Assembly: GCF_040939305.1 (NCBI RefSeq)
Contig: NZ_CP162511.1
Span: 2,542,001-2,606,000 of the forward strand
From: Herbiconiux sp. A18JL235
GTDB taxonomy: Bacteria; Actinomycetota; Actinomycetes; Actinomycetales; Microbacteriaceae
Direction: 5' to 3'
Length of the DNA: 64,000 nt
The notes under the pieces are model-generated. The model saw only the letters and a list, made by a program, of their open reading frames with translations. It was not told the origin of the DNA and did no database searches. Positions within the stretch are counted from its first letter, which is position 1. Each line of letters begins with the position of its first letter. Positions 37,060 to 55,439 of the stretch are shown here, one piece after another. The position numbers and the translations under genes are program-made.

Positions 37060-37117
37060 CTTCTCCCGCACAAAGTCCGTGAAGACCGAGGTCTTCACGG
37101 ACTTTTTCGGGGAGAAG
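37060..37117. repeat. Long palindromic element, copy 1
   Basis: A perfect 16-bp inverted repeat AAAGTCCGTGAAGACC / GGTCTTCACGGACTTT with a 2-base centre (37072-37105) is extended outward, after a short mismatch, by CTTCTCCCG on the left and CGGGGAGAAG on the right. It lies between the end of mftD and the start of the cellulase gene. It could be the mftD terminator, being symmetrical, and T-rich on the right. The 269-bp gap 36985-37253 holds only this, its second copy and GC-rich filler. Confidence 0.8.
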
Positions 37118-37182
37118 TGGGGGGGGCGGGGCGGGTTCAGGTGACCGGGCGGAACGCGCCCACACCCAGACCTGTCTCCGCG

Positions 37183-37237
37183 TTGTCCCGCACAAAGTCC
37201 GGGAAGACCGAGGTCTTCACGGACTTTGTCGGGGAAA
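37183..37237. repeat. Long palindromic element, copy 2
   Basis: Second copy of the preceding palindrome, 122 bp away in the same orientation. Core arms at 37194-37209 and 37212-37227 differ by one mismatch (left arm AAAGTCCGGGAAGACC). The outer arms TTGTCCCG and CGGGGAAAAG are related but not identical to copy 1. It begins 17 bp after the mftD stop codon, the expected place for a terminator. Confidence 0.8.
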
Positions 37238-37253: not shown

Positions 37254-38588
37254 CTAGGGCTGGTCGGCCTCGGCCTTCGCGAGGGGCTTGGCCGCGCGGG
37301 AGGGGGTGCGGGAGGTCTTCTGCGGGGCGCGGGCCGGAGGCTCGGTGCCCGCACCCGTCTCCCCGCCGGCCGAGGTGACCGCGCCGGCACCGGCCGCTCC
37401 CCCGTCGCCCTCAGAGCCGCCGCCGAGGGTGCGCTCGAACCCGGCCGGGATGCTGAGGTCGTCTCGCCCGAGCTCGTGCACCGAGGAGTGCCCGGTGCCG
37501 AGCACCGCCGAGTCGAGCCCCCCGCGCAGGATGTCGAGCACGTTCTCCACCCCCGCCTGCCCGTTCGCGGCGAGACCCCACAGGTAGGCCCGGCCGATCA
37601 TCACGGCCCGGGCCCCGAGCGCCACGGCCTTCGCCACGTCGCCGCCGCGCCGCACGCCTCCGTCGAGAACGACCTCGATCTGGTCGCCGACCGCCGCGAC
37701 GACCGAGGGCAGCACCCGGATGGTCGCCGGCGTCGTGTCGAGGTTGTTGCCGCCGTGGTTCGACACCGAGATGGCAGTGACCCCCGCATCCACAGCCCGG
37801 CGGGCGTCGTCGACCCGGGTCACGCCCTTCAGCATGAACGGCCCGCCCCACTGCTCGCGCATCCACACCACGTCGTCCCACGACGGGGGCGGGGTCTGCA
37901 TCCACTCGTAGTAGGCGCCGAAGAACGTCGGCGCCGAGCCCCCGGGCGGCTGCAGATTGGGTGCGGTGAGGTCGGGCAGCTTGCGGGTCTTCGCGAAACG
38001 CAGCAGCCAGGCCGGATGCGGCAGCACGTTGGGTGCGAACTTCACCATGGTCTTCAGGTCGAGCTTCTCCGGGATCGACGGGGAACCCCAGTCGCGCCCG
38101 TTCGAGAACGACCAGTCGAGAGTCGCGATGAGCCCCTTCGCGCCCGCCGCGCGCGCCCGCTCCATGCGCTGGATCATGGCGTCGCGCGTTCCCGTCCAGT
38201 ACATCTGGTACAGCGTGTTCGGGTTGGCGGCGGTCACCTCCTCCACCGGCTTCGAGGCGAACGACGACAGCCCCATCGAGATGCCGCGGTTCGCGGCCGC
38301 CCGGGCCACGGCCACCTCGCCGTCGGGGTGCACCGCCTGCACGCCGGTCGGCGAGATCATCACCGGGAACGACAGGTCGAGCCCCATCACCGAGGTGGCG
38401 AGGTCGCGGGTGGCCTTGTGCCCGGCGACGTGCGGCGCGAAGCCGAGCTCGCTGAAGGCGCCGATGTTGTCGTCGATCGTCGTGCCCCGCTCGGAGCCGG
38501 CGACGAGCGCCCCGTACACCGAGGAGGGAAGCTGCTTCTTGGCCCGGCGCTGCGCCTCGGCCACGGTCTCGAACCATGCGTTCGCCAT
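37254..38588 (-). CDS. mftD: Pre-mycofactocin synthase MftD
   Basis: A 444-residue FMN enzyme of the L-lactate dehydrogenase/alpha-hydroxyacid oxidase fold. In mycofactocin synthesis it oxidatively deaminates the 3-amino-5-[(4-hydroxyphenyl)methyl]-4,4-dimethylpyrrolidinone (AHDP) to the redox-active alpha-keto lactam. Visible blocks: MISPTGVQAVHPDGEVAVAR, the FMN-binding LKGVTRVDDARRAVDAGV, the catalytic SNHGGNNLD with its His, and VVLDGGVRRGGDVAKAVALG. A roughly 50-residue Ala/Pro/Thr-rich tail after PAGFERTLGG is extra to the family core. It has its own upstream motif, shared with the mftA/mftR promoter, and sits 91 bp from the VWA gene. It is therefore probably a separate transcription unit as well as operon-end gene. 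Confidence 0.93.
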   Translation of the reverse strand: MANAWFETVAEAQRRAKKQLPSSVYGALVAGSERGTTIDDNIGAFSELGFAPHVAGHKATRDLATSVMGLDLSFPVMISPTGVQAVHPDGEVAVARAAANRGISMGLSSFASKPVEEVTAANPNTLYQMYWTGTRDAMIQRMERARAAGAKGLIATLDWSFSNGRDWGSPSIPEKLDLKTMVKFAPNVLPHPAWLLRFAKTRKLPDLTAPNLQPPGGSAPTFFGAYYEWMQTPPPSWDDVVWMREQWGGPFMLKGVTRVDDARRAVDAGVTAISVSNHGGNNLDTTPATIRVLPSVVAAVGDQIEVVLDGGVRRGGDVAKAVALGARAVMIGRAYLWGLAANGQAGVENVLDILRGGLDSAVLGTGHSSVHELGRDDLSIPAGFERTLGGGSEGDGGAAGAGAVTSAGGETGAGTEPPARAPQKTSRTPSRAAKPLAKAEADQP

Positions 38589-38640
38589 CGAACTCCCACT
38601 CTCCCCTCACCCTCTGCGGTGAGGATCACATCCATCATAA

Positions 38641-38655
38641 TGACACCGGGTGCCA
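38641..38655. promoter_or_regulatory. Candidate MftR operator upstream of mftD
   Basis: TGACACCGGGTGCCA, a near-palindrome TG-A-CACC-G-GGTG-C-CA, lies 53 bp upstream of the mftD start. Thirteen of 15 bases match the motif in the mftA/mftR divergent promoter (44967-44981), and both are preceded by TAA. On the mftD strand a CATTATGAT (-10-like) follows directly, as CATTAGTAT does at mftA. That MftR is the binder is inferred. Confidence 0.6.
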
Positions 38656-38679
38656 GAACATACCGTCCGGGCGCCCAAA

Positions 38680-39564
38680 TCACTCCCGGAACACGGCACC
38701 GAGTGCCGGGGCGACGTCGTGGAAGCCCCGGATGGCCCTGAACGTACCCCTCCCGAACCGCGCCAGCTCGCGCCCGAGCTCGACGTCCTTCTCGCCGCTG
38801 GTGTCGAGCAGCACGTCGAGCCTCGGCAGCCGCGCGGCGAACGGCCTCGGATCGGGCCCCGCGTTGTGCACGCAGTCCGACAGCAGGATGACCCGCGCGT
38901 TGCGCTCCGGCACCCCGGCGAGCTGCTCGGCGGCGATCTTCAGCGGGAAGGCGACGTTGGTGAGCCCCCGGGCCGGCAGCCGCAGCATCTCGTCGAGGAG
39001 CTCCATGGGCCGCACCGGGTCGCCGAGCCGGTGCAGCACCGCGGCATCCGACCAGAACGCCACCACGGCGAGCGCGTCGTGCGCGAGCTCGGCGGCCAGC
39101 GCCCCGACCGTCGCCGCGGCCGTGCGCACCCGCTCGCCCTTCATCGAGCCCGAGACGTCGACCGCGAGCACGACCGAGCGGCGTGCTCGCACGCGCTCGC
39201 GCACGATCACGTCCTCCTCCTCCGGCAGAGGCTTCTCGGCGAGCATCTGCAGCGTGAGGTCGAGATCGATCTCGTCGCTGCCGCCGCGGTAGGGCACGCT
39301 CTTCAGCTGCCCCCATCCGCGGTCGCGGGCTCCGTCGGCGCGCGGCTTCGGCACCGACAGCCGCGAGGCGATCTGCGCCGCCCGCTCGCGTACGAGCGCA
39401 TCGACGGGCGCGGCGTCGAGTTCCTCGGCGAGGAGGAGCACGCCCTCGTCGTCGGTGAAACCCTCGCCCGAGCCCGAGGGCCGCGGCTTCGCAGCACTCC
39501 CCCGCCCCGGCCCGGGCTGCGCACGGAGCACCAGCCCCGAGCCGCTGCCCGAGACCGAGTACAC
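38680..39564 (-). CDS. VWA domain protein paired with the MoxR ATPase
   Basis: A 294-residue protein with a C-terminal von Willebrand A domain. The metal-ion-dependent adhesion site is complete: DVSGS (136-140), the Thr of GLTNVAFPL and the Asp of LLSDCVHNAG. Residues 1-120 are a helical, charged N-domain. It belongs with MoxR AAA ATPases, which together act as a cofactor-insertion or activation chaperone for dehydrogenases and metalloenzymes. The start is uncertain. The GTG used here has no clear ribosome site, and the open frame continues 35 codons further upstream to a TGA which is the MoxR stop, in the same reading frame. Homologues may begin earlier, or an indel may be present. Confidence 0.8.
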   Translation of the reverse strand: MYSVSGSGSGLVLRAQPGPGRGSAAKPRPSGSGEGFTDDEGVLLLAEELDAAPVDALVRERAAQIASRLSVPKPRADGARDRGWGQLKSVPYRGGSDEIDLDLTLQMLAEKPLPEEEDVIVRERVRARRSVVLAVDVSGSMKGERVRTAAATVGALAAELAHDALAVVAFWSDAAVLHRLGDPVRPMELLDEMLRLPARGLTNVAFPLKIAAEQLAGVPERNARVILLSDCVHNAGPDPRPFAARLPRLDVLLDTSGEKDVELGRELARFGRGTFRAIRGFHDVAPALGAVFRE

Positions 39565-39669
39565 GGTGGGGTCTTCGTCGAGCTGCTTCGGCCGCCGGCG
39601 CAGCGGCTTGGCCCCGCGCGGTGCGTCGTCGCGGCGCCGGGAGACGGGGGTGTCGGCCTCGACCGCTCT

Positions 39670-40590
39670 TCACCCCGGCTCGGCCCTCGCCGGCTCCAGC
39701 ACGAAGTGGTCTTCCCAGATCTCGCGCAGCACCCGTTCCGGAGTCGTCTCCACCGCCTCGTCGACGTGGATGCGCCCCGACAGCGACACCAGCATCGCGT
39801 CGAAGAAGGTGGCCCGGTAGGCCTCCTCGTCGTCGACGTCCTGCCCCCGCAGCCCGAGCAGCTCGTGGGTCACCAGGGTGCAGTCGATGGCACCCCGCAC
39901 GCTCGACCCCTGACGCACATCCGGATGCTCGCGCGTCGCCCGCGTGACCGCGACCGCGTCGGGGATGATGCGGGCGGCGGCAGCGGCACCCGAGCCCGAG
40001 CCGAGCCCGGTGCGGAGGGCGACGATGCCGCGCTCGGCCTCGGCGTCCTGATAGCCGACGACGATGCGGTTGAGCCGGTCGCTCACGCTCGTGGACAGCC
40101 GTGTCGTGCCCACGTTGTCGAACGGGTTCATCGAGGCGATCACCCGGAAGGTGGGCAGCGCCTCCACGCGCCCCACCCTCGGCACCTCGATCGACCGGTC
40201 GGCCATCGCGGTGAGGAGGGTGTTCAGCGTGTCTTCCGGGGCACGGTTGAACTCCTCGATGTAGAGGAAGCCGCCTCGCCGCATCGCTTCGACGAGGGGC
40301 CCGGGCACGAAGTTGTCGGCGCTGTAGTCCTCCCGCAGCACCCGGGCCGGGTTGTGGTGGCCGACGAGCTTGCCGGAGGTGAGGTCGGCGTTGCCCTCCA
40401 CGAACACCAGCGGAATGCCCCACTCCTCGGTGATGGCTTTCAGCATCGTGGTCTTCGAGGTGCCGGGCGGGCCCTCGAGCACCAGGTCGCGACCCGCCGA
40501 GACGGCCGCGAGGGCGAGCTCGAGCTCGCGCTCACGGCCGACCAGGTGGGCGGCAACCCGCCGACGGGTGGCCTCCAGCGATTCACCCAT
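39670..40590 (-). CDS. MoxR-family AAA ATPase
   Basis: A 306-residue AAA+ ATPase. Walker A is GPPGTSKT (residues 40-47), Walker B GGFLYIEEFNRAP (~105-118), followed by sensor 1 FRVIASMNPFDN and an Arg finger region TRLSTSVSDRLNR. MoxR ATPases work with VWA partners to activate or load cofactors into enzymes such as methanol dehydrogenase, CO dehydrogenase or nitric oxide reductase. The ATG lies 2 bp after the SDR stop, so it is translationally coupled to the dehydrogenases, and the VWA gene follows. Its likely client is therefore a mycofactocin-dependent dehydrogenase (inference). Confidence 0.9.
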   Translation of the reverse strand: MGESLEATRRRVAAHLVGRERELELALAAVSAGRDLVLEGPPGTSKTTMLKAITEEWGIPLVFVEGNADLTSGKLVGHHNPARVLREDYSADNFVPGPLVEAMRRGGFLYIEEFNRAPEDTLNTLLTAMADRSIEVPRVGRVEALPTFRVIASMNPFDNVGTTRLSTSVSDRLNRIVVGYQDAEAERGIVALRTGLGSGSGAAAAARIIPDAVAVTRATREHPDVRQGSSVRGAIDCTLVTHELLGLRGQDVDDEEAYRATFFDAMLVSLSGRIHVDEAVETTPERVLREIWEDHFVLEPARAEPG

Positions 40591-40592
40591 CC

Positions 40593-41435
40593 TCACTTCA
40601 CCGTGTATCCGGCGTCGATCTTGAGCTCGGTTCCCGTGACGTACCGCGCCTCGTCGGAGGCGAGGTAGAGCACCGCGTTCGAGATGTCGATCGGCTCCAC
40701 CCACGGCACGGGCAGGGCGTTCGTGGTGGCGAACACCTCGGCCGCCTCCTCGCGGGTGGGGTGCTCGACGTGCGGCAGGAACAGCCTGAACGTCGCCTCA
40801 TTGAGGATCATGTCGGTCGCGACCCCGGTGGGGTGCACGGTGTTCACCCGGATGCGGTGCGGAGCGAGCTCGAGCGCCAGCGTGCGCATGATGCCCACCA
40901 CCGCATGCTTCGACGCCGTGTAGGCGACCACGTTCGGCGTGCCCTTGAGACCGGCCGTCGACGACGTGAGCACGATCGATCCACCGGTGCCCTGCTCGAT
41001 CAGGTGCGGGATGACGGCTTTCGCCGTGTGCCACACGCCCTTCGCGTTGATGTCGTTCACCATGTCCCACTCGGCGTCCTCGACCAGCTGCGACTGCTCG
41101 CCGAACGCGAAGACACCCGCGTTCGCCGAGACGATGTCGACGTGGCCGAGCTGCGCGACCCCCTCGTCGACCGCCGCCTTCAGCGCGTCGAAGTCGCGCA
41201 CATCCGCTTTGGTGGCCACGATGCGCCGGTCGAGCGCCTCGATCTGGCGCACGGTCTCGGCGAGGTCGTCCTCCGTGGCGCCGGCGTAGTACTTCTCCAT
41301 GCCGGGGATCGACTCCGCGATGTCGACGGCGATGATGTCGGCACCCTCCTCGGCGAGCCGCAGCGCGTGGCTGCGACCCTGCCCGCGCGCCGCGCCCGTG
41401 ATGAACGCGACCTTGCCCTCTACTCGTCCTGCCAT
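40593..41435 (-). CDS. Mycofactocin-coupled SDR family oxidoreductase (third of three)
   Basis: A 280-residue short-chain dehydrogenase beginning MAGRVEGKVAFITGAARGQG, the signature start of the mycofactocin-coupled SDR group. These carry a non-exchangeable NAD(H) and use mycofactocin as external electron acceptor. The family insert DLAETVRQIEALDRRIVATK (~residues 52-71) is present. Catalytic Ser is in VLTSSTAG and YTASKHA supplies Tyr and Lys. The ATG has a good GAGAGGAG ribosome site; a longer frame upstream does not. It lies 13 bp after the second SDR and 2 bp before moxR. The alcohol substrate is unknown. Confidence 0.93.
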   Translation of the reverse strand: MAGRVEGKVAFITGAARGQGRSHALRLAEEGADIIAVDIAESIPGMEKYYAGATEDDLAETVRQIEALDRRIVATKADVRDFDALKAAVDEGVAQLGHVDIVSANAGVFAFGEQSQLVEDAEWDMVNDINAKGVWHTAKAVIPHLIEQGTGGSIVLTSSTAGLKGTPNVVAYTASKHAVVGIMRTLALELAPHRIRVNTVHPTGVATDMILNEATFRLFLPHVEHPTREEAAEVFATTNALPVPWVEPIDISNAVLYLASDEARYVTGTELKIDAGYTVK

Positions 41436-41448
41436 GGTCCCGCTCCTC

Positions 41449-42282
41449 TCACTTGATCGCCGCACCGGCGTCGACGGGCAGCATGACCCCCGTGACGTAG
41501 CGCGACTCGTCGGAGGCCAGCCAGAGCACGGCGTTCGAGATGTCGACCGGGTCGACCCACGGGATGGGAATGGCGTTCATCGCGATGGCGCTGTCGGCGA
41601 AGTCCTTCTGCGTGGGGTTCTCGAGGTCGGGCCGGAACAGCTTGTAGGTGCCCTCGTTCTGCACCATCGGGGTGTCGACGGTGGTGGGGTGGATGCTGTT
41701 CACCCTGATGAAGTCGGGTGCCAGTTCGAGCGCCAGGGTGCGCATCAGCCCGACGACACCGTGCTTCGCCGAGACGTAGTGGGCGATGTTCGGGTAGGCG
41801 AAGATGCCGGCGTCGGAGCTGGTGAGGATGATCGACCCGCCGTTGCCTCCGGCCTTCAGGTGCGGGATTGCCGCCTTGGCCGTGCGCCACACGCCGTTGA
41901 GGTTGATGTCGACCATGTCGGCCCATTCCTCGTCGGGAATGTCTTCGGCGCGGTTCGGCGACCCGGCGATGCCGGCGTTGGCCGAGACGATGTCGAGCCG
42001 CCCGAGCTGGGCGACGCCGTCGTCGAGCACCGACTTCAGCTGGTCGAAGTCGCGCACGTCGGCCTTCGCGGCGACGATGCGGCGGTCGAGTGCCTCGACC
42101 TGGCGCACGGTCTCGGCGAGGTCCTCCTCGGTGGCCGGCGGTGCGTTGTTCGCCGCCACCGGAGCGCAGATGTCGACGGCGATGATGTCGGCGCCCTCCT
42201 GGGCGAGCCGCAGCGCGTGGCTGCGCCCCTGCCCCCGCGCCGCGCCGGTGATGAATGCGACCTTGCCCTCTACACGCCCCAT
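41449..42282 (-). CDS. Mycofactocin-coupled SDR family oxidoreductase (second of three)
   Basis: A 277-residue paralogue starting MGRVEGKVAFITGAARGQG. The NAD-binding glycine motif GAARGQG and insert DLAETVRQVEALDRRIVAAK are intact. Ser is in ILTSSDAG, and YVSAKHG supplies Tyr and Lys. It is about as similar to its neighbours as to each other by eye, so the triplication is not very recent. The substrate-loop region (PMVQNEGTYKLFRPDLENPTQ) differs from the other two, implying different alcohols. The upstream gap contains a duplicated GC hairpin. Confidence 0.93.
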   Translation of the reverse strand: MGRVEGKVAFITGAARGQGRSHALRLAQEGADIIAVDICAPVAANNAPPATEEDLAETVRQVEALDRRIVAAKADVRDFDQLKSVLDDGVAQLGRLDIVSANAGIAGSPNRAEDIPDEEWADMVDINLNGVWRTAKAAIPHLKAGGNGGSIILTSSDAGIFAYPNIAHYVSAKHGVVGLMRTLALELAPDFIRVNSIHPTTVDTPMVQNEGTYKLFRPDLENPTQKDFADSAIAMNAIPIPWVDPVDISNAVLWLASDESRYVTGVMLPVDAGAAIK

Positions 42283-42301
42283 CGCGTGCTCCCTTCGTCA
42301 T

Positions 42302-42343
42302 GGCCCCGGCGGGGCCGGTTGATGCGGCCCCGGCGGGGCCGGT
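42302..42343. repeat. Tandem GC hairpins between two SDR genes
   Basis: GGCCCCGGCGGGGCCGGT occurs twice within 42 bp (start-to-start 23-24 bp) in the 73-bp gap between SDR genes. Each copy folds as GGCCCC-GGC-GGGGCC, a 6-bp stem with a 3-base loop. Placed inside an operon, it may attenuate or stabilise the message rather than end it. Confidence 0.75.
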
Positions 42344-42355
42344 GAACGTTCGGGT

Positions 42356-43165
42356 CTAGAACTGCGTGTTGCCGGCGTCGACCGTGAGCTCGAGGCTCGT
42401 GACGTACCTCGACTCGTCGGAGGCGAGGAAGAGCACGGCGTTCGACTGGTCGACCGGCTCGGTGATCTCGATCGGCAGCAGGTTGGCGAGCATGCCGCCG
42501 AGCTTCGGGTGCGCCTCGAGCAGCGGGCCGAAGGCGCCTCCGCCGAGCGTGCCCATGGGCGTGTTGACGCCGGTCGGGTGGATCGTGTTGACGCGGATGT
42601 TGTACTCGGCGAGCTCGGTGGCGTAGGCCCGCATGAGCCCCACCACACCGTGCTTCGCGGTGACGTAGGCCGAGAGGAACGGCAGCCCCTTGATGCCGGC
42701 CGCGGAGCTGGTCATGATGATCGAGCCGCCGCCGTTGTCGATGAGGTGCTGCGTGCTGAGCTGGAGGGTGTTCCAGACGCCCTTGAGGTTGGTGCCGATG
42801 GTCTGGTCCCACACCTCCTCCGAGGTGTCCTTCCAGTCGGCGATCACGCAGATGCCCGCGTTCGCCACCACGATGTCGAGCTTGCCGAGCTGGGCGACGC
42901 CCTCGTCGATGGCGGCCTTCATCGCGGCCCGGTCGCGCACATCCGTCTTCGTGGCGATGATGCGACGGTCGAGCGCCTCGACCTGGCGCACGGTCTCGGC
43001 GAGGTCCTCCTCGGTCGAGGAGGGGTAGTCGATGTTCGGGATGTGGTCGGCGAGGTCGACGGCGATGATGTCGGCGCCCTCCTCGGCCAACCGCACCGCG
43101 TGGCTGCGGCCCTGCCCTCGCGCGGCGCCCGTGACGAACGCGACCTTTCCTTCAACACGCCCCAT
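42356..43165 (-). CDS. Mycofactocin-coupled SDR family oxidoreductase (first of three)
   Basis: A 269-residue short-chain dehydrogenase of the mycofactocin-dependent group. I start it at MGRVEGKVAFVTGAARGQG, where GGAAGGAG lies 7 bases upstream; the longer frame adds eight unlikely residues. The insert DLAETVRQVEALDRRIIATK is present. Ser is in IMTSSAAG, with Tyr/Lys in YVTAKHG. It lies 57 bp after mftC, so it is the first substrate dehydrogenase in the operon. Its C-terminal lid (GGGAFGPLLEAHPKLGGML) is distinct from the two following paralogues. Confidence 0.93.
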   Translation of the reverse strand: MGRVEGKVAFVTGAARGQGRSHAVRLAEEGADIIAVDLADHIPNIDYPSSTEEDLAETVRQVEALDRRIIATKTDVRDRAAMKAAIDEGVAQLGKLDIVVANAGICVIADWKDTSEEVWDQTIGTNLKGVWNTLQLSTQHLIDNGGGSIIMTSSAAGIKGLPFLSAYVTAKHGVVGLMRAYATELAEYNIRVNTIHPTGVNTPMGTLGGGAFGPLLEAHPKLGGMLANLLPIEITEPVDQSNAVLFLASDESRYVTSLELTVDAGNTQF

Positions 43166-43222
43166 TGCATGCTCCTTCCACTCCATCACTCCACGCGGGC
43201 CGTGTCTCGGCCCGTGGTCTTG

Positions 43223-44512
43223 TCAGCCCTCGGGCCGGAACCCGGCGAGCGGGTTCTCCTCGCAGGCACTCACCGGTGGCCGGTCGGGCCGGGTGAGGGA
43301 GAGCGTGATCGGCACGGCGCGGCTCTTCTTCGTGCTGATCAGCCCGCTGCTCACGGGTTTGCCGTCACGCCTCGGCCCGCGCACGGTCGAGTGCGAGTGG
43401 TCGCCGTCGGGCTTCGGGATGCTGTCGGCCTCCTTGCGCTTCTCGAGCGCCTCCTCGCCGAAGCCGCGCACGCACTCCGGGTCGGGGCCGTCGAGCGGCA
43501 GCCCGGTGAAGAACTTCGCGGCCATGCAGCCGCCCTTGCAGGAGTCGAAGAAGCTGCAGGATGCGCAGGCACCGCCCGATTGCGGGATGCGCAGGCGGGT
43601 GAACAGCTCGGAGTGCCGCCACACCTCCTGGAACCCGCCGGGCTCGCGCACGTTGCCGGCGAGGAACTCGTCGTGGATCGCGAACGGGCAGGCGTACACG
43701 TCACCGACCGGGTCGATGAGGCACACCACCCGGCCCGCACCGCAGAGGTTGAGACCGGGAAGCGCCTCGCCGTAGGCGGAGAGGTGGAAGAAGCTGTCGC
43801 CCGTGAGCACACCCTCGCCGTTCGCGACGAGCCAGTCGTAGAGCTCGCGCTGCTGCGCGGGCAACGGGTGCAGCTCGTCCCACACGTCGGCGCCGCGGCC
43901 CGACGGCCGCAGGCGGGTGAGCCGCAGCTGGGCGCCGTAGTGGTCGGCGATGGCCTTGAACTCGTCGAGCTGCGGGATGTTCTGCCTGGTGCACACCACC
44001 GAGATCTTGAAACCGGTGAACCCGGCATCCTTCATGTTCTGCATGGCGCGCATCGCCGTGGCGTAGGAACCGGGGCCGCGCACGAAGTCGTTCACCTCGG
44101 CGGTGGCGCCGTCGAGGGAGATCTGCACGTCGACGTAGTCGCTCGCGGCGAGCTTCTCGGCCACCTCGGGGGTGATCTTCACCCCGTTGGTGGAGAACTT
44201 CACCCCGACTTTGTGGGCGGTGGCGTAGTCGACGAGCTCCCAGAAGTCGCTGCGCACCGTGGGCTCGCCGCCACCGATGTTCACGTAGAACACCTGCATG
44301 CGCTCGAGCTCGTCGATGACCGCCTTGCACTCCTCCGTGCTGAGCTCGCGCGGATCGCGACGACCCGAGCTCGACAGGCAGTGCACGCACGAGAGGTTGC
44401 AGGCGTAGGTGAGCTCCCAGGTGAGACAGATCGGCGAATCGAGCCCGTACTCGAACAGGTCGACCAGGCGAGCCGCCTTCGCGGGCGGGCGGGGTGCGTC
44501 GAGGAGGGTCAT
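43223..44512 (-). CDS. mftC: Mycofactocin radical SAM maturase MftC
   Basis: A 429-residue radical SAM/SPASM enzyme. It decarboxylates the C-terminal Tyr of MftA and then forms a Val-Tyr C-C crosslink. The [4Fe-4S] cluster binding Cys residues lie in YACNLSCVHC (C38, C42, C45). The SPASM region carries CGAGRVVCLIDPVGDVYACPF and CASCSFFDSCKGGCMAAKFF, binding two auxiliary clusters. YVNIGGGEPTV is the conserved SAM-binding GGE. The start overlaps the mftB stop by 4 bp (ATGA). The C-terminal about 65 residues, rich in Lys/Pro, match the family tail. Assignment is secure. Confidence 0.97.
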   Translation of the reverse strand: MTLLDAPRPPAKAARLVDLFEYGLDSPICLTWELTYACNLSCVHCLSSSGRRDPRELSTEECKAVIDELERMQVFYVNIGGGEPTVRSDFWELVDYATAHKVGVKFSTNGVKITPEVAEKLAASDYVDVQISLDGATAEVNDFVRGPGSYATAMRAMQNMKDAGFTGFKISVVCTRQNIPQLDEFKAIADHYGAQLRLTRLRPSGRGADVWDELHPLPAQQRELYDWLVANGEGVLTGDSFFHLSAYGEALPGLNLCGAGRVVCLIDPVGDVYACPFAIHDEFLAGNVREPGGFQEVWRHSELFTRLRIPQSGGACASCSFFDSCKGGCMAAKFFTGLPLDGPDPECVRGFGEEALEKRKEADSIPKPDGDHSHSTVRGPRRDGKPVSSGLISTKKSRAVPITLSLTRPDRPPVSACEENPLAGFRPEG

Positions 44513-44784
44513 TGCTGCCTTTCGATCACCATCTGCGACACGGCGAGCGTGCCCAGGGCTAATTGGTAACGGGGCATGTCGGCATCGCCGATGCCCGCAC
44601 GGGAGAACGCGTCGCGGAGCGTCGCCGACCCGGCGAGGCCCTCGACCGCCGCGAGGAGCGCGCGGTCTTTCAAGAAGGAGAGCTTGCGTGTTCCGAAGTG
44701 GTAGAGCAGAGCACCGAAGGGCTCAGGGCGCACCGACACCTGCGGATGCAGGTCCCACGCGCTGTCCAGAGGCGGCGTGGTCAT
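44509..44784 (-). CDS. mftB: Mycofactocin RiPP recognition element protein MftB
   Basis: A 91-residue PqqD-like peptide chaperone that binds the MftA leader and presents it to MftC. The central YHFGTRKLSFLKDRALLAAVEGL (about residues 28-50) is the family core. It starts 9 bp after the mftA stop and overlaps mftC, so precursor, chaperone and maturase are one translational unit. Confidence 0.95.
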   Translation of the reverse strand: MTTPPLDSAWDLHPQVSVRPEPFGALLYHFGTRKLSFLKDRALLAAVEGLAGSATLRDAFSRAGIGDADMPRYQLALGTLAVSQMVIERQQ

Positions 44785-44793
44785 GGCGTCGGA

Positions 44794-44904
44794 CTAGTAG
44801 ACGCCGCACATGCCGTCGATCGACACCTCTTCGACGAGCGAATCCTCGACGACCGACACGTCGTCGTTCACGGTCTCGGTGCTGGCCACATCACGGTCAC
44901 TCAT
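44794..44904 (-). CDS. mftA: Mycofactocin precursor peptide MftA
   Basis: A 36-residue precursor (start MSDRDVAST, end SIDGMCGVY) carrying the invariant C-terminal IDGMCGVY. The last two residues, Val-Tyr, are crosslinked, released and converted to the redox cofactor mycofactocin. The leader is acidic (EEVSI just before the core), which is where MftB binds. The ATG is preceded by AGGAGAATCCC. The gene is far too short for ordinary ORF filters and sits inside a longer spurious frame. A TGACACCG-type palindrome lies 62 bp upstream, in the divergent promoter with mftR. Confidence 0.96.
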   Translation of the reverse strand: MSDRDVASTETVNDDVSVVEDSLVEEVSIDGMCGVY

Positions 44905-44966
44905 GGGATTCTCCTCATGGTCGTATTCGTCTTCTTCGTCGAATCGCGGCGATAGCACGATACTAA

Positions 44967-44981
44967 TGACACCGAGTGCCG
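44967..44981. promoter_or_regulatory. Candidate MftR operator in the mftA/mftR divergent promoter
   Basis: TGACACCGAGTGCCG, half of each arm palindromic (CACC-G-AGTG), lies between the two start codons. On the mftA side it abuts a -10-like CATTAGTAT. On the mftR side it follows GATACT, where the transcript should start, so a bound repressor would block both. The same motif recurs upstream of mftD. TetR family repressors typically bind such short palindromes. Confidence 0.6.
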
Positions 44982-44998
44982 AATGGAAGGGGGCAGAC

Positions 44999-45625
44999 GT
45001 GACCGACGCGTCGGAGACGCCCACCACCGCCCCCGCGCGAGTGGGCAGGCAACCCTCGACCAGCCGGGCCGAACTCAGCCACATCGCCTTGCAGCTCTTC
45101 CTCGAGAACGGCTTCGACGCCACGACGATCGACCAGATCGCGGCGCGGGCAGGAATCGGGCGGCGCACCGTGTTCCGGTACTTCCCGTCGAAGAACGACC
45201 TGCCCTGGGGCGACTTCGACCTGCTGCTCGACCGCATGCGCGCCCACCTCGCGAGCATGCCCGCCGAGCTCCCCCTGGTCGACGCGCTGCACGCCGCCGT
45301 GGTGGAGTTCAACCGGTTCCCCGTCGAGGAGGTGCCCTACCACCGCCAGCGCATGGACCTGCTCCTGAACGTCCCCACGCTGGTCGCCCACTCGACCCTG
45401 CGCTATGCCGCCTGGCGAGCCGTGATCGCCGCCTTCGTCGCGGAGAGACTCGGCGAACCGGAGGAGTCGCTGCGCCCGCAGGCCATCGCCTGGTCGTACC
45501 TCGCGGTCTCCCTCTCGGCCTACGAGCAGTGGCTGCGGCACGACGACGCCGACCTCGCGCTGCTGCTCGACGAGGCGGTGGCAGCGCTGGCCTCGACCTT
45601 CGACACCACCCGCGGCGACGGGTAG
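44999..45625 (+). CDS. mftR: Mycofactocin system TetR-family regulator MftR
   Basis: A 208-residue TetR regulator. The helix-turn-helix region (ELSHIALQLFLENGFDATTI ... GIGRRTVFRYFPSKNDLPWG) closely follows MftR proteins, including the FRYFPSKND block. In mycobacteria MftR represses the mft cluster and is relieved by long-chain acyl-CoAs. The GTG start is preceded by GGAAGGGGG; an ATG at 44966 would place the start inside the candidate operator and is less likely. The gene is divergent from mftA and 7 bp upstream of mftG, forming an mftR-mftG unit. Confidence 0.92.
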   Translation: MTDASETPTTAPARVGRQPSTSRAELSHIALQLFLENGFDATTIDQIAARAGIGRRTVFRYFPSKNDLPWGDFDLLLDRMRAHLASMPAELPLVDALHAAVVEFNRFPVEEVPYHRQRMDLLLNVPTLVAHSTLRYAAWRAVIAAFVAERLGEPEESLRPQAIAWSYLAVSLSAYEQWLRHDDADLALLLDEAVAALASTFDTTRGDG

Positions 45626-45632
45626 CCGCACG

Positions 45633-47279
45633 GTGAGCGCGCCGGCCGACGAGGTCTGGGACGTCGTTGTGGTCGGCGCCGGCGCCTCAGGCTGCGCCCT
45701 CGCTGCGCGCCTCGCCGAAGACCCGTGGCGGCGCGTGCTCGTGCTCGAGGCCGGCCCGGTGCCGGCGTCTGCCGGGGAGTTCCCCACCGACGCCCTCGAT
45801 GCGGCGACGATCGCGGGGGCGGCACCCGGGCATCCGCTCAACTGGGCCTACCCTGCGACGCTCTACGAGGGGCGGCCCTATTCGCTCGCCCGCGGGCGGG
45901 TCGCCGGTGGCTCGACGACCGTCAACGGCGGCTACTTCGTGCGCCCGCGCCGGGTCGACCTCGACGGCTGGGCTGAGCTCGGCGGCACCGGATGGAGCTG
46001 GGAGGCCTGCCTGCCGGCTCTGCGGCGGCTCGAGGCGGATGCTCAGTACGGCACGGATGCGCTGCACGGCTCCTCGGGGCCCATGCCTGTCACCCGCGCG
46101 CCGATCGGGCCCGACGGTGACGGCGGCACCGCGACGGCATCGGCCTTCGTGCGGGCCGCACGGGCCGCCGGGCTGCGGTTCGAGGCCGACAAGAACGGCG
46201 ATCAGCCGAACGGTATCGGCCCGCTGCCGATGAACCTGCGCGACGGCGTGCGCTGGAACGCGGCGCTCGCCTACCTGCTGCCGCCCGTCGGCCGGGCGGC
46301 GGGGCGGCCGAACCTCGAGCTGCGCGGGGAGGCGACGGTGCGGCGGGTGGTGCTGCAGCCGGGCGGCCCCGGTGCGAGCGCTTCGATGCCGCGCGACCGC
46401 CTGCCGAGCACGCCCAGGGTCGTGGGCGTCGAGGTGGCGAGCGGCGGCACAGTGTCGATGGTGCACGCGCGCGAGGTGGTGCTCGCGGCCGGAGCACTCG
46501 CCACCCCGCTGCTGCTGCTGCGATCGGGAATCGGCCCGCGCGACGAACTCGACGCCGCCGGTGTCGCGTGCGCGGTCGACTCGCCCCGGGTGGGGCGGGG
46601 GCTGAGCGACCACCCGCAGGTTCCGGTGACCTGGGTCGACCGGTCGCTTCCGCCGGAGCACCGCGTGCCGAGCCTCGAGATCGTGCTGAACACCGCGGTG
46701 GGCGACGCCGGTGACGAGGTCGAGGTGCTGCCGCTCACGCGGCCGATGGACGAGCTGCTGACGAGCGCGGAGTCCGCGACGCCACAGGGAGCGCTCGACG
46801 CGCCCGGCTCCGCGCGGCGGCTGACGGCGCTGGTGGCGCTGCAGACCTCACGGGCCAGGGGCAGCATCCGTCTCGTCGCGGGAACCGACGGACCCGAGCC
46901 GCGCATCGACCTCGGCTACCTCGACGACCGGCTCGATCGCACCGCCCTGCGTGCCGGGGTGCGGCTCGCCGTCGGCCTGCTGCACTCCCCCGCCTTCGAC
47001 GACGCGACCGGGGTGCAGCCCGAGCCGGCGGTCGTCGGTGACGACGACTCCCTCGACGCCTGGCTCCTCGACCACCTCGGTACGGCCTTGCACAGCTGCG
47101 GCACCGCGGCGTTCGGCGGACCATCCGCCGTGACCGACGGATTCGGGCGGGTGAACGGGGTGAGGGGGCTGCGCATCGCCGACCTGTCGATCGTGCCGAC
47201 GGCTCCCCGGCGCGGCCCGGCCCTCACGGCGGTGCTCGTCGGTGAACGCGTCTCCGATTTCCTGCGCTCGGGGCACTGA
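45633..47279 (+). CDS. mftG: Mycofactocin system GMC family oxidoreductase MftG
   Basis: A 548-residue FAD flavoprotein of the glucose-methanol-choline family. ADP-binding VVVVGAGASGCALAARLAED is near residue 11. The GMC signature RGRVAGGSTTVNGGYFVRP is near 90. The C-terminal catalytic His is in HSCGTAAFGG and GLRIADLSIVPTAPRRG is the last FAD contact. MftG is thought to pass electrons from mycofactocinol to the respiratory chain, regenerating the oxidised cofactor. GTG start, 7 bp after mftR. Its presence argues that the pathway is active even though mftE and mftF are not nearby. Confidence 0.93.
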   Translation: MSAPADEVWDVVVVGAGASGCALAARLAEDPWRRVLVLEAGPVPASAGEFPTDALDAATIAGAAPGHPLNWAYPATLYEGRPYSLARGRVAGGSTTVNGGYFVRPRRVDLDGWAELGGTGWSWEACLPALRRLEADAQYGTDALHGSSGPMPVTRAPIGPDGDGGTATASAFVRAARAAGLRFEADKNGDQPNGIGPLPMNLRDGVRWNAALAYLLPPVGRAAGRPNLELRGEATVRRVVLQPGGPGASASMPRDRLPSTPRVVGVEVASGGTVSMVHAREVVLAAGALATPLLLLRSGIGPRDELDAAGVACAVDSPRVGRGLSDHPQVPVTWVDRSLPPEHRVPSLEIVLNTAVGDAGDEVEVLPLTRPMDELLTSAESATPQGALDAPGSARRLTALVALQTSRARGSIRLVAGTDGPEPRIDLGYLDDRLDRTALRAGVRLAVGLLHSPAFDDATGVQPEPAVVGDDDSLDAWLLDHLGTALHSCGTAAFGGPSAVTDGFGRVNGVRGLRIADLSIVPTAPRRGPALTAVLVGERVSDFLRSGH

Positions 47280-47357: not shown

Positions 47358-48104
47358 ATGAAAGACCAGCAGCACGCGCGCGTCTTCGGCACCGAGGCCA
47401 CGGCCTACGAGCTCGGCCGGCCGGGGTACCCCGTCGACGCGGTCGACTGGATCCTCTCCCACGTCGACACCGACGAGGGCACCCCTCCCGACGTGGTCGA
47501 CCTGGGCGCCGGAACCGGCAAGCTCACCGCCTCGTTCGTCGGCCGAGCCGCATCCGTCACCGCCGTCGAGCCCGACGTCGCGATGCTCGCCACCCTCGAG
47601 GCCCGTCTGCCCGGTGTGGTCGCGCTCGAAGGCTCGGCCGAGGCCGTCCCGCTCGGAGCCGCATCGGCCGACCTGGTGACCATGGCCCAGGCCTGGCACT
47701 GGGTCGACCCGGTGGCGGCGAGCGCCGAGGTGGCGCGGGTGCTGCGGCCGGGCGGGGTGCTCGCCCTGCTCTGGAACGTACGCGACGAGGGCACCGAGTG
47801 GGTGGCGGCGCTCAGCCGTACCATCGGCTCGTCGATCGCCGAGGAGTTCGACACCGTACGGCCTCCCCTGGCCGCGCCACTGCGCCGCGACGCCTACGCC
47901 CAGTTCACCTGGGTGAACCGCCTCGACCGAGAGCAGCTCGTCGCCATGGTGACCTCGCGCAGCTACGTCATCGCCATGCGGGCCGCAGAACGAGCGGCCC
48001 TGCTGGCGTCCGTCGACGAACTCATCGATACACACCCGCAGCTGGCCGGGCGTGAGCGGTTCGAGCTGCCCTACCTGACGAGGGTGACGCTCGCCCGGGT
48101 CTGA
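47358..48104 (+). CDS. Class I SAM-dependent methyltransferase
   Basis: A 248-residue methyltransferase-domain protein. Motif I is VVDLGAGTGKLT (residues ~47-58), the acidic end of strand beta2 is VTAVEPD, and post-I motifs include ADLVTMAQAWHWVDP and RVLRPGGVLALLWN. The family (often annotated as ubiE/COQ5-like or trans-aconitate methyltransferase-like) methylates small molecules. Nothing around it indicates the substrate. It starts 78 bp after mftG on the same strand; a link to mycofactocin is possible but not supported by sequence. Confidence 0.9.
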   Translation: MKDQQHARVFGTEATAYELGRPGYPVDAVDWILSHVDTDEGTPPDVVDLGAGTGKLTASFVGRAASVTAVEPDVAMLATLEARLPGVVALEGSAEAVPLGAASADLVTMAQAWHWVDPVAASAEVARVLRPGGVLALLWNVRDEGTEWVAALSRTIGSSIAEEFDTVRPPLAAPLRRDAYAQFTWVNRLDREQLVAMVTSRSYVIAMRAAERAALLASVDELIDTHPQLAGRERFELPYLTRVTLARV

Positions 48105-48183: not shown

Positions 48184-49623
48184 ATGCCCGACACCCTGAC
48201 GGAGGCCGACCCCTCGGTGCACGACGCCCCCAGGCGCCGACGAGGCTTCTCGATCAACGCCGTGTTCGACAACGTGTTCTTCGTGGTGGCCGGCGTCGCC
48301 TCGATCTGGCTCGCGTATCTCGTGCTAACCCAGGGCTTCGCCTCGGGCTGGGCCCAGATCTGGTTCTACCTGGTGTTCTGGGTGCTGGTCGCCTACATCG
48401 CGCTGCCGCGCCTTCACCGCATCCTCACGAACATCTACGTGCCGAACTACTTCATCGGCCGCACTCGCACGAGCGACGGGCTGCTCGGCGACCCCGTGAA
48501 CCTCGGCCTGCTCGGCAGCGAGGAGCAGCTGCACACGGCGATGCTCGCGGCGGGATGGACGAGGGCAGACGACCTTTCTCTGCGGAGCGGATGGCGCATC
48601 GTCACCTCCACCCTGCTCCGGCGCAGCTACGACGAGGCCCCGGTGAGCCCGCTCATGCTGTTCGGCCGCAACCAGGACTTCGCCTATCAGCAGGAGGTGA
48701 AGGGCAACCCCGCCAAGCGTCACCACGTGCGCTTCTGGCGTTGCCCCGAGGGCTGGCTGCTGCCCGGCGGGCACCAGACCGACTGGCTCGCGGCGGGCAC
48801 CTACGACCGCGCCGTGGGCTTCTCGCTGTTCACCCTGCAAATCACGCACAAGATCGACGAGAACACCGACGTCGAGCGCGACCACATCGTGACGACGGTG
48901 CAGGCGGCGGATGCGGTGGTCGGCGTGCGGGTGCTGAAGGACTTCGCCACCGGCTACCACTCACGCAACGGCGGCGGCGACTCCATCGTCACCGACGGCG
49001 ACCTCCCGGTGATCGACCTGCGGCGGGTGACGCCGTCGGCAGCGGGGGTCGCCGAGGTGCGGGCGCCCGTGCCGACCCCGCACGACGATGTCGCCGGACG
49101 AGAACCCCTGGCCTCGAAGGTGGTGCGCCGACCCGGCCCGACGGTCTTCGGCGGCGTTGTCGTGCTGCTGCGGGCCTTCGTTCCCGTGCTGCTCGTGCTC
49201 GCCGTGCTGCTCGACTGGTCGGCGGTGCGCGACGCCATCCAGCTCGACACCGGCTCGGAACTGCCCGCGGAGGTCGACCGCGATCTCACGCTGTGGATCC
49301 TCGTGGCGGGCGCCATCGCGTTCGGTATCGCCGAGTTCCTGTTCGGGCTGTTCGTCTTCCTGGGGAGCAACGTGGCGCGCATCCTGGTGATGTCGTTCAG
49401 CGCGATCAACATCATCATCGTCGCCGTCGATCACATCGACGGCAGGGTGCAGATCACCCTCGGAACGAATCTCATCGGGCTCTCGCTCGACATCCTCATC
49501 CTCATCGCGCTGTCGAGCAGCCGGGCACGGGACTACGCCAGGCGCCCCCGCGAGAAGAGGCGGAGCACAGGCGCGGGCCGCGCGCGAAGCGTACCCGTCA
49601 CGCAGCGATCATCGAGAGGCTGA
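48184..49623 (+). CDS. LssY C-terminal domain membrane protein
   Basis: A 479-residue membrane protein. Two hydrophobic helices are at ~residues 28-85. A soluble LssY_C-like domain follows at ~90-285: SEEQLHTAMLAAGWTRADDLSLRSGWRIV, and HHVRFWR with the conserved His and Arg. Three or four further helices follow after 320. The domain occurs in Legionella secretion accessory and PAP2-associated proteins, and its function is unknown. The 3' end overlaps a convergent small gene by 26 bp. Confidence 0.85.
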   Translation: MPDTLTEADPSVHDAPRRRRGFSINAVFDNVFFVVAGVASIWLAYLVLTQGFASGWAQIWFYLVFWVLVAYIALPRLHRILTNIYVPNYFIGRTRTSDGLLGDPVNLGLLGSEEQLHTAMLAAGWTRADDLSLRSGWRIVTSTLLRRSYDEAPVSPLMLFGRNQDFAYQQEVKGNPAKRHHVRFWRCPEGWLLPGGHQTDWLAAGTYDRAVGFSLFTLQITHKIDENTDVERDHIVTTVQAADAVVGVRVLKDFATGYHSRNGGGDSIVTDGDLPVIDLRRVTPSAAGVAEVRAPVPTPHDDVAGREPLASKVVRRPGPTVFGGVVVLLRAFVPVLLVLAVLLDWSAVRDAIQLDTGSELPAEVDRDLTLWILVAGAIAFGIAEFLFGLFVFLGSNVARILVMSFSAINIIIVAVDHIDGRVQITLGTNLIGLSLDILILIALSSSRARDYARRPREKRRSTGAGRARSVPVTQRSSRG

Positions 49624-51092: not shown

Positions 51093-51977
51093 TCAGAGTT
51101 CGGGGAAGCCGTCGCCGAACAGCGCCCGGAGGTACGCCGAGGCGGTGGCGGCGTCTCCGTCGAGATAGGCGTTGATCGCGCCCCGCGAGCTCGACGCCGC
51201 GCGCTCGACCGGGTAGCCGGCCTCGATGGCCCCAGCCAGCCGCGGCGCCGCCCGCACGGGCTGCACCAGCGACGGGCTGGACGGGTCGGGCACCGGCACC
51301 AGACCGGCGTCGGAGAGCGCCTCCCACACCCAGCACAGATCCCACAGCCGGTTGAACGACGGCTGCTGCAGCGTCTGGCGCAGGGCGACGGTCTCGAGGT
51401 AGTACGACGAGACGGGCACGTCGAGGCGGTGCTTCCAGGCCAGGAGGAGTCGCACCAGCTCGCGCACCGAGCCGTCGATGTCGATGCGCGAGAGCAGCAC
51501 GCCACGCGCCGCGGGCCGGCACAGCACCCAATGCCGGGCCGCGTCGACGACCCAGACCGCCGCCGCGGTGGCACCCGGCGCATCCGGGCCCCCGCCGGTC
51601 GCGTGCTCGTAGGCGGGCAGCAGACGGACGCCCGGAGTACCCGTCGCGGCGTCGGCCGTCATCACGAGGGAGTCGCTCTGCACCGTTGCCGCGGGCGACC
51701 CGGAGGTCTCGAGGCCGGCGAGCATCGTCTCGAGCGCCTTCGCCGGCGAGCGCGGCCGCGACCCGCGCAGCACCACGATGACGTCGAACAGGCTCGACCC
51801 CGCCACCGCCGTGCCGTGCGCGAACGACCCGGCGTCGACGGCGCTGAGGGCGAGGCCGTCGGCCAGGAGCGGCGCCACCAGCGCGCGCGCAACGGCGGCA
51901 GCCGCGCGCGCCTCCGCCTCAGACGGGCGCAGACTCGCGGCGAAGCCCGCGAGAGCATCGGCGACCTCATCGATCAC
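51093..51977 (-). CDS. CD-NTase/OAS-fold protein with degenerate catalytic residues
   Basis: A 294-residue protein resembling the OAS/CD-NTase nucleotidyltransferase fold. The helix-turn GS motif reads DAGSFAHGTAVAGSS (48-62). The following strand has only one of two expected acidic residues (FDVIVVL: D65 present, I67 in place of Asp). The third catalytic Asp is replaced by Arg118 in GVRLLPAYEH. The C-terminal helical half, with LVRLLLAWKHRLDVPVSSYY, fits the OAS core helices. GTG start with AGGAGG upstream. It is followed closely by the lipid kinase and preceded by a helical unknown. Catalytic activity is unlikely; a scaffold or sensor role is more plausible (inference). Confidence 0.72.
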   Translation of the reverse strand: MIDEVADALAGFAASLRPSEAEARAAAAVARALVAPLLADGLALSAVDAGSFAHGTAVAGSSLFDVIVVLRGSRPRSPAKALETMLAGLETSGSPAATVQSDSLVMTADAATGTPGVRLLPAYEHATGGGPDAPGATAAAVWVVDAARHWVLCRPAARGVLLSRIDIDGSVRELVRLLLAWKHRLDVPVSSYYLETVALRQTLQQPSFNRLWDLCWVWEALSDAGLVPVPDPSSPSLVQPVRAAPRLAGAIEAGYPVERAASSSRGAINAYLDGDAATASAYLRALFGDGFPEL

Positions 51978-53129: not shown

Positions 53130-53152
53130 AACTTTTCGCATTGCGAAAAGTT
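53130..53152. promoter_or_regulatory. TetR-type operator upstream of the regulator/MFS pair
   Basis: A perfect 11-bp inverted repeat, AACTTTTCGCA and TGCGAAAAGTT, around a single central base. It lies 24 bp upstream of the TetR gene start, in an AT-rich island (AAATATTTT follows). A TATTTT ending 5 bp before the GTG could be the -10, which would make the transcript leaderless. The adjacent TetR is the expected binder. Confidence 0.78.
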
Positions 53153-53176
53153 TCTCTCTGTGCAAATATTTTCACC

Positions 53177-55439
<2,263 letters not shown>

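Follow-up and report, generated by a model that had tools for sequence, protein, structure and literature searches.

The stretch of DNA analysed here, called the window throughout, comprises 64,000 nucleotides (nt) of the Herbiconiux sp. A18JL235 genome (contig NZ_CP162511.1, positions 2,542,001 to 2,606,000). It contains a mycofactocin (mft) locus in which a gene for a MoxR-type AAA+ ATPase and a reading frame for a VWA protein lie between three mycofactocin-coupled short-chain dehydrogenase/reductases (SDRs) and mftD (Table 1). This MoxR-VWA module is real, widespread and, within the literature searched, undescribed, and the conserved UGA between its two parts was unexpected.

The genes named in the original prediction, with their places and strands, were confirmed by NCBIfam and Pfam profiles together with direct reading of mftA. 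NCBIfam cut-offs were exceeded by MftB, MftC, MftD, MftR and all three SDRs. The C-terminal motif of MftA recurs in the loci of six relatives. The genome has mftA, mftB and mftC, including the MftA motif, and encodes MftD, MftE and MftF above curated cut-offs; one further TIGR03971 SDR above the cut-off is encoded outside the window. The closest named relatives of MoxR, MftC and MftD of the window are from Herbiconiux. The gap between the stop of SDR3 and the start of MoxR, the latter set by alignment to relatives, is 2 nt (TGA-GG-ATG), and the coupling of MoxR to the SDRs appears plausible from the gene arrangement.

Table 1. Features of the mycofactocin locus in order of window position; scores in bits, profile cut-offs in brackets
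Feature	Position	Strand	Evidence and remarks
mftD	37254..38588	-	TIGR03966, 696.5 (470.85)
VWA frame, continuation of MoxR frame	38680..39669	-	VWA_2; first in-frame ATG, GTG or TTG is the GTG at 39564
TGA AGA, in-frame stop and rare Arg codon, putative readthrough site	39667..39672	-	
MoxR-type AAA+ ATPase	39670..40590	-	AAA_5 match; 306 aa, ends Pro-Gly-TGA
SDR3, mycofactocin-coupled	40593..41465	-	TIGR03971, 395 (300)
SDR2, mycofactocin-coupled	41449..42282	-	TIGR03971, 409 (300)
SDR1, mycofactocin-coupled	42356..43189	-	TIGR03971, 365.5 (300)
mftC, radical SAM maturase	43223..44512	-	TIGR03962, 654.6 (265)
mftB	44509..44784	-	TIGR03967, 101.8 (33)
mftA, precursor	44794..44904	-	36 aa; C-terminus IDGMCGVY (end SIDGMCGVY), read directly in the sequence
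mftR, TetR-type regulator	45038..45625	+	TIGR03968, 273.2 (224.9); coordinates are those of the profile-matched part
MftG-like GMC dehydrogenase	45633..47279	+	TIGR03970, 377.3, just below cut-off (387.45)

Dehydrogenases beside MoxR and the distribution of the module

Copies of MoxR were collected from 63 loci found by MoxR similarity, from survey genomes and from the window, 105 in all and 102 after removal of duplicates. The nearest gene on the same strand within 300 nt upstream of MoxR encodes an SDR in 63 of these and a zinc-dependent alcohol dehydrogenase (Zn-ADH) in 24, so that a mycofactocin-type dehydrogenase stands directly upstream in 87 of the 102; the remaining copies have a tandem MoxR (2), mftC (1), an FMN dehydrogenase (1) or nothing recognised (11) there. 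The labels for neighbours came from profiles built on these same loci. Six Zn-ADHs tested with NCBIfam all proved to be TIGR03989 members; among the SDRs NCBIfam was run on the low-scoring ones of loci L102 and L115, which belong to TIGR04504/NF040491, another mycofactocin-coupled kind. In 23 of 26 survey genomes the distance from a curated TIGR03989 gene to the MoxR downstream of it is -1 to 159 nt, a count that leaves out the genome of the window and the partial copy in G444, and in the other three (G251, G430 and G532) a mycofactocin-type SDR is found upstream.

The association extends to MoxR copies away from the biosynthetic genes. Twenty-two copies, each with at least 5 kb of available DNA on both sides, have none of mftB to mftF within 10 kb in that DNA; 12 of them still follow such a dehydrogenase and two are in tandem. 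Among 72,556 plasmid records in PLSDB, two carry MoxR, both from Rhodococcus. In the R. qingshengii plasmid it comes immediately after a mycofactocin-coupled SDR, the two overlapping by 4 nt, and in the R. ruber plasmid mycofactocin-coupled SDRs on the opposite strand flank it on both sides; no mft biosynthesis gene is annotated within 7 kb of either copy in the PLSDB annotation, which is incomplete. Three genomes (G202, G385 and G472) each have one MoxR copy behind SDRs and another behind a Zn-ADH. As a control, the four MoxR paralogues of the Herbiconiux genome were inspected in loci of about 3.5 kb, and all four are without a mycofactocin-type dehydrogenase or mft gene. The idea that adjacency to MoxR is a property of a single SDR orthologue was rejected, because 25 label changes are needed on a quick tree of 183 SDRs. 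Judged by neighbourhoods, the module tracks the enzyme more than the pathway. The original prediction of a helper module for mycofactocin enzymes is thus supported by comparative genomics, including the unlinked and plasmid copies beside dehydrogenases, and the association is wider than had been proposed.

An even draw of 396 genomes across the phylum, 53 with mftC and 343 without, was used to compare distributions. At an E value of 1e-50 the MoxR profile finds 33 genomes, 28 of which have mftC (28/53 vs 5/343, Fisher p 2e-23). With a line at 290 bits, set after the scores were seen, the figures are 27/53 vs 2/343 (Fisher p 7e-25); both tests ignore kinship. The two mftC-negative genomes with MoxR at 290 bits or more are both incomplete (G322, 89%; G499, 87%). 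Within Microbacteriaceae (150 genomes), six of the seven genomes bearing mftC carry MoxR near it, in G101 cut by the contig end, and G018 is without it. The placement beside mft genes in this family is more than chance, and the tie to mycofactocin enzymes reaches well beyond Microbacteriaceae.

The rarity of MoxR in genomes without mftC, and the position of the pair between mftC and mftD in most Microbacteriaceae loci, would also be expected if MoxR-VWA helped to make mycofactocin or to activate MftD or MftG and had a dehydrogenase as neighbour only through a shared operon. We consider this explanation unlikely. The unlinked and plasmid copies retain a dehydrogenase and not mft genes, and 25 of the 53 mftC genomes are without MoxR at E 1e-50. 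In addition, MoxR sorts by the class of its upstream enzyme: in a quick 92-row tree, two changes, the minimum for three classes, account for the SDR, Zn-ADH and TIGR04504 SDR classes, and 11 changes (minimum 6, shuffled mean 33.1) are needed with all labels, exceptions included. The MoxR and SDR trees were built from loci with MoxR copies above 280 bits, near-duplicates L050, L073, L091, L062, L074 and L089 being left out.

Several of these observations weigh against a general role with dehydrogenases as well. The 25 mftC genomes without MoxR are one. In one family (f6), 13 of the 14 mftC genomes have no MoxR despite up to six TIGR03989 enzymes each; only a partial copy exists in the fourteenth, G444. 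Not every such enzyme therefore needs the module. Eight of the 22 unlinked copies have nothing recognised directly upstream; of these, L082 and L088 have an SDR on the opposite strand 2.3 and 4.7 kb away, and L121 to L123 are weak matches (205-255 bits) from mftC-negative genomes. Finally, the loci share ancestry, and the counts are not independent.

Three loci are of separate interest. L121, in genome G192, encodes a MoxR-VWA pair of lower similarity (255 bits), close to a dimethylamine methyltransferase gene, and is perhaps a sister module with another client. At L130 (G385) a mutation or a sequencing error splits mftC into two open reading frames (ORFs); the mft cluster is otherwise complete. 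At L036 (Frondihabitans sucicola) mftC, mftG, mftR and mftF are each matched by two adjacent ORFs, which suggests frameshifts in the record or gene decay.

The in-frame TGA between MoxR and VWA

A VWA follows MoxR in 95 of the 102 copies, and in 12 of those the two are fused. The frame analysis was confined to MoxR copies above 280 bits, which leaves out L121 to L124 and a 265-bit copy in L092; the near-duplicates L050, L073 and L091 were omitted here and from the codon, constraint and RNA-fold analyses. On this basis the pairs divide into 11 fused ones, 59 unfused ones whose shared frame is interrupted by one stop, and 20 whose frames differ. Lowering the threshold to 200 bits adds one in-frame locus, by elimination L124, the partial copy in G444. 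All 59 in-frame pairs belong to the SDR branch, where they make up 59 of the 60 unfused loci; apart from L093, the out-of-frame pairs (19) lie in the Zn-ADH branch, with which L102 and L115 are counted. All 59 in-frame loci have TGA as that stop, followed by AGA in 36 and by AGG in 23; both plasmid copies have an in-frame TGA-AGA. AGR accounts for 197 of 3605 arginine codons in the same genes, and it comes directly after the stop in 3 of 176 SDR genes and in 2 of 59 VWA genes. Stops of the SDR genes in these loci are mixed (82 TGA, 66 TAG and 28 TAA).

Coding constraint continues beyond the TGA. About 100 nt encode a shared peptide, RAVEADSP...PLRRKPKQL. The ratio of non-synonymous to synonymous differences (pN/pS) in this linker is 0.31 in the MoxR frame (46 pairs) vs 1.60 and 2.04 in the other frames; the values for MoxR and VWA themselves are 0.28 and 0.33. 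In the window there is no ATG, GTG or TTG for 105 nt after the TGA, the first start codon of translation table 11 being a CTG at +66, and in 36 of the 59 loci there is none of these three within 50 nt. On such sequence comparisons, programmed UGA readthrough is the simplest reading of the conserved TGA. Few chromosomal genes of bacteria are known to have a conserved, programmed readthrough.

It is also conceivable that ribosomes stop at the TGA and restart nearby on weak codons such as GTG, CTG or ATC, the VWA then being a separate protein. A Shine-Dalgarno-like GAAGRG after the TGA would suit such a restart, and one of the seven table-11 starts occurs within 24 nt in 47 of the 59 loci. The codons from +2 to +9 are, however, already constrained (pN/pS 0.47 vs 0.93 and 2.03 in the other frames; 58 loci, L082 left out), 12 of the 59 loci, including that of the window, have none of the seven starts within 50 nt, and no start codon is conserved. 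Restart seems to us rather unlikely, though conceivable at weak codons in those 47 loci. A conserved in-frame TGA with coding constraint downstream resembles a selenoprotein gene too, but the aligned position holds Glu, not Cys, in three fused homologues aligned by eye, and no strong hairpin follows the TGA in seven sequences folded singly (z -1.41 to 0.59). That the codon specifies selenocysteine is thus most improbable.

Those foldings also count against programmed readthrough, for they revealed no shared or stimulating RNA structure after the TGA, a feature that readthrough genes do not invariably possess. The frequent nearby starts count in the same direction, as does the fact that the VWA genes of these loci mostly end in TGA themselves (52/59). 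L093 is a further exception; it belongs to the SDR branch and is out of frame, with a MoxR stop of TGA-CGC and a VWA broken into two ORFs.

Genomes G202 and G385 have a MoxR in tandem with a MoxR-VWA fusion, which fits a need for both forms; lone fusions elsewhere do not require both. Standard gene prediction divides into two what is possibly a single recoded gene, as both plasmid records show.

Unlinked mftE and mftF, and neighbouring genes

Whole-genome profile searches bore out the absence of MftE and MftF from the window. In this 4.3-Mb genome MftE is encoded at C1:3411025-3411798 (285.4 bits) and MftF at C1:792360-793727 (403.7 bits), distant from the window and from one another. The original prediction had offered unlinked or replaced MftE and MftF as alternatives. 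The former is correct; a takeover of their function by other enzymes was rejected, both proteins being present above curated cut-offs. Unlinked MftE and MftF of normal architecture had been listed among the findings that would count against a chaperone role, jointly with a lack of conservation of MoxR-VWA beside mft genes in relatives; the first was found, and the second was not.

In the other six mftC genomes among the 150 Microbacteriaceae, MftE and MftF score above the cut-off and are adjacent to each other in all; the pair is at the mft locus in five and on a separate contig in G101. The order in Herbiconiux solani is mftD-mftE-mftF-GH5 cellulase, and a second Herbiconiux locus (L030) has the same cellulase arrangement, which L031 does not. 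In the window mftD is followed, as predicted, by a repeat region and a cellulase, here 155 nt with a hairpin-like repeat and then a GH5 cellulase that matches the H. solani enzyme with 75% identity over 362 residues. Since relatives keep mftE and mftF after mftD and the cellulases match, the two genes were lost from the syntenic site, and their absence from the locus is a local rearrangement. Within the mftD-cellulase junction (window 37072-37227) a strongly palindromic, hairpin-like 24-nt repeat occurs twice (fold z -6.86), possibly as a terminator or a scar; its 20-nt core does not occur in the 131 loci examined.

The two genes appear to have had different histories. MftC and MftD of this genome lie within the clade of Herbiconiux sequences. 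A quick tree places MftE there as well, at modest support (81 and 89 in the SH-like approximate likelihood ratio test), which points, at that level of support, to a Herbiconiux-type gene that moved. MftF groups with that of G026, a genome of another genus (100/100), apart from the Herbiconiux MftF clade (100/99); the original MftF was probably replaced and the present copy acquired.

Two ORFs after mftG, of 248 and 479 aa, were considered as MftE and MftF and rejected; they encode a methyltransferase (window 47358-48104, +) and an LssY_C protein (48184-49623, +). The methyltransferase gene adjoins mftG, an arrangement shared with G026 and several Herbiconiux loci, and its product may be a local counterpart of MftM, which methylates mycofactocin. 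Farther on lie a gene for an oligonucleotide cyclase like those of the anti-phage system CBASS (51093-51977, -; PADLOC 118.9 bits), and a TetR-type regulator followed by a DHA2-family exporter of the major facilitator superfamily (53141-55439, +).

A possible activase for mycofactocin dehydrogenases

Both parts of the module retain the motifs of their families. Walker A is kept in 97 of 98 and a Walker B-like motif in 98 of 98 MoxR copies; the D/S/S/T of the metal-ion-dependent adhesion site (MIDAS) is kept in 96 of 96 VWAs, and its last D in 93 of 94. AlphaFold models were made from 30-row alignments. That of MoxR (mean predicted local distance difference test score, pLDDT, 88.1) is closest in fold to NorQ and next to CbbQ; that of VWA (pLDDT 75.4) most resembles the VWA domain of NorD and the MIDAS domain of Rea1, at TM-scores near 0.5. 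In a PDB sequence search the MoxR profile matched eukaryotic midasin at 140 bits and, as its best prokaryotic match, CbbQ at 57.6 bits; the VWA profile had no match there. Neither MoxR nor VWA of the window scores as high as the cut-off of any NCBIfam model. The matches to GvpN (TIGR02640, 73.9 bits, cut-off 266.8) and MadB (NF047784, 44.8 bits, cut-off 475) are at the superfamily level, and the module is a member of neither. Membership in a known anti-phage system was rejected, PADLOC giving MoxR 20.8 and 18.2 bits to IetA and VWA nothing.

Three characterised systems invite comparison. NorQ-NorD is the closest in fold, with Walker and MIDAS motifs kept here. The NorQ hexamer carries one NorD (PMC9976466), and NorQD inserts iron (PMC13036017, PMC9976466). 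However, no nitric oxide reductase is among the identified neighbours of the present module, whose partner genes are those of mycofactocin dehydrogenases; standard ORF calling gives a VWA of 294 aa, compared to about 70 kDa for NorD; and NorQ and NorD are separate proteins, whereas MoxR and VWA appear to be joined across a TGA. CbbQO frees rubisco of inhibitors (PMC8718961), and such repair of an inhibited enzyme is a model for the role proposed here. No rubisco gene was seen nearby, however, and the client would be a dehydrogenase. CoxD-CoxE is an AAA+ and VWA pair in CO dehydrogenase maturation (PMC4240915, PMC3471820). A VWA_CoxE-type domain scores 26.3 bits in the window (cut-off 26.4) and exceeds the cut-off in L098 and L103, and Pfam finds both AAA and VWA domains in the fused L098 protein; the region shows no gene for CO dehydrogenase.

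Three observations, the tight genomic tie to dehydrogenases of two folds, the preserved ATPase and MIDAS motifs and the fold predictions, incline us to the view that MoxR-VWA is an AAA+ machine of the NorQD/CbbQO type for mycofactocin-coupled nicotinoprotein dehydrogenases, rather than for the synthesis of mycofactocin, with its halves joined in the SDR branch by partial UGA readthrough. TIGR03971 SDRs bury their NAD, and nuclear magnetic resonance showed no exchange (PMC5264612). The VWA would dock on the dehydrogenase, and the MoxR hexamer would spend ATP to open the enzyme around this buried, non-exchangeable NAD, thereby loading or resetting it; we infer this NAD-opening step, and it is our own choice of mechanism. 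A fraction of ribosomes would read the UGA, giving free MoxR and some MoxR-VWA fusion, here of 636 residues, one of them at the UGA position, and one gene could thereby supply a hexamer with few VWA arms. Partial readthrough would give few arms per ring, in keeping with the single NorD bound by the NorQ hexamer (PMC9976466).

Alternatively, the dehydrogenases might receive a metal or some other cofactor from the module, much as NorQD, the closest fold of both parts, inserts iron (PMC13036017). We think this distinctly improbable, for the same MoxR subfamily follows both SDRs and zinc enzymes. The SDR family as a rule needs no metal.

An extension of the preferred reading is more doubtful, though possible: the conserved UGA signal (mostly CCN GGN UGA AGR) may set the ratio of MoxR to fusion in a "nicotinoprotein activase" that loads or rescues buried NAD in dehydrogenases of unrelated folds and that has spread in Actinomycetota with its client enzymes, also on plasmids.

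Among the matches listed in searches of the open PubMed Central (PMC) literature, none for mycofactocin with MoxR, MadB, VWA or CoxE describes a MoxR-VWA link, none for NDMA-dependent enzymes, nicotinoproteins or SDRs with MoxR describes a link, and none for readthrough with MoxR or VWA names either protein. The word "ATPase" does not occur in the available text of Haft 2011 (PMC3023750), nor "MoxR" or "VWA" in that of the MftG paper (PMC11778925). With an ATPase that follows mycofactocin enzymes of two folds, the question of how these enzymes acquire or recover their cofactor becomes testable with one knockout, and the module could matter for the expression of mycofactocin enzymes in other hosts.

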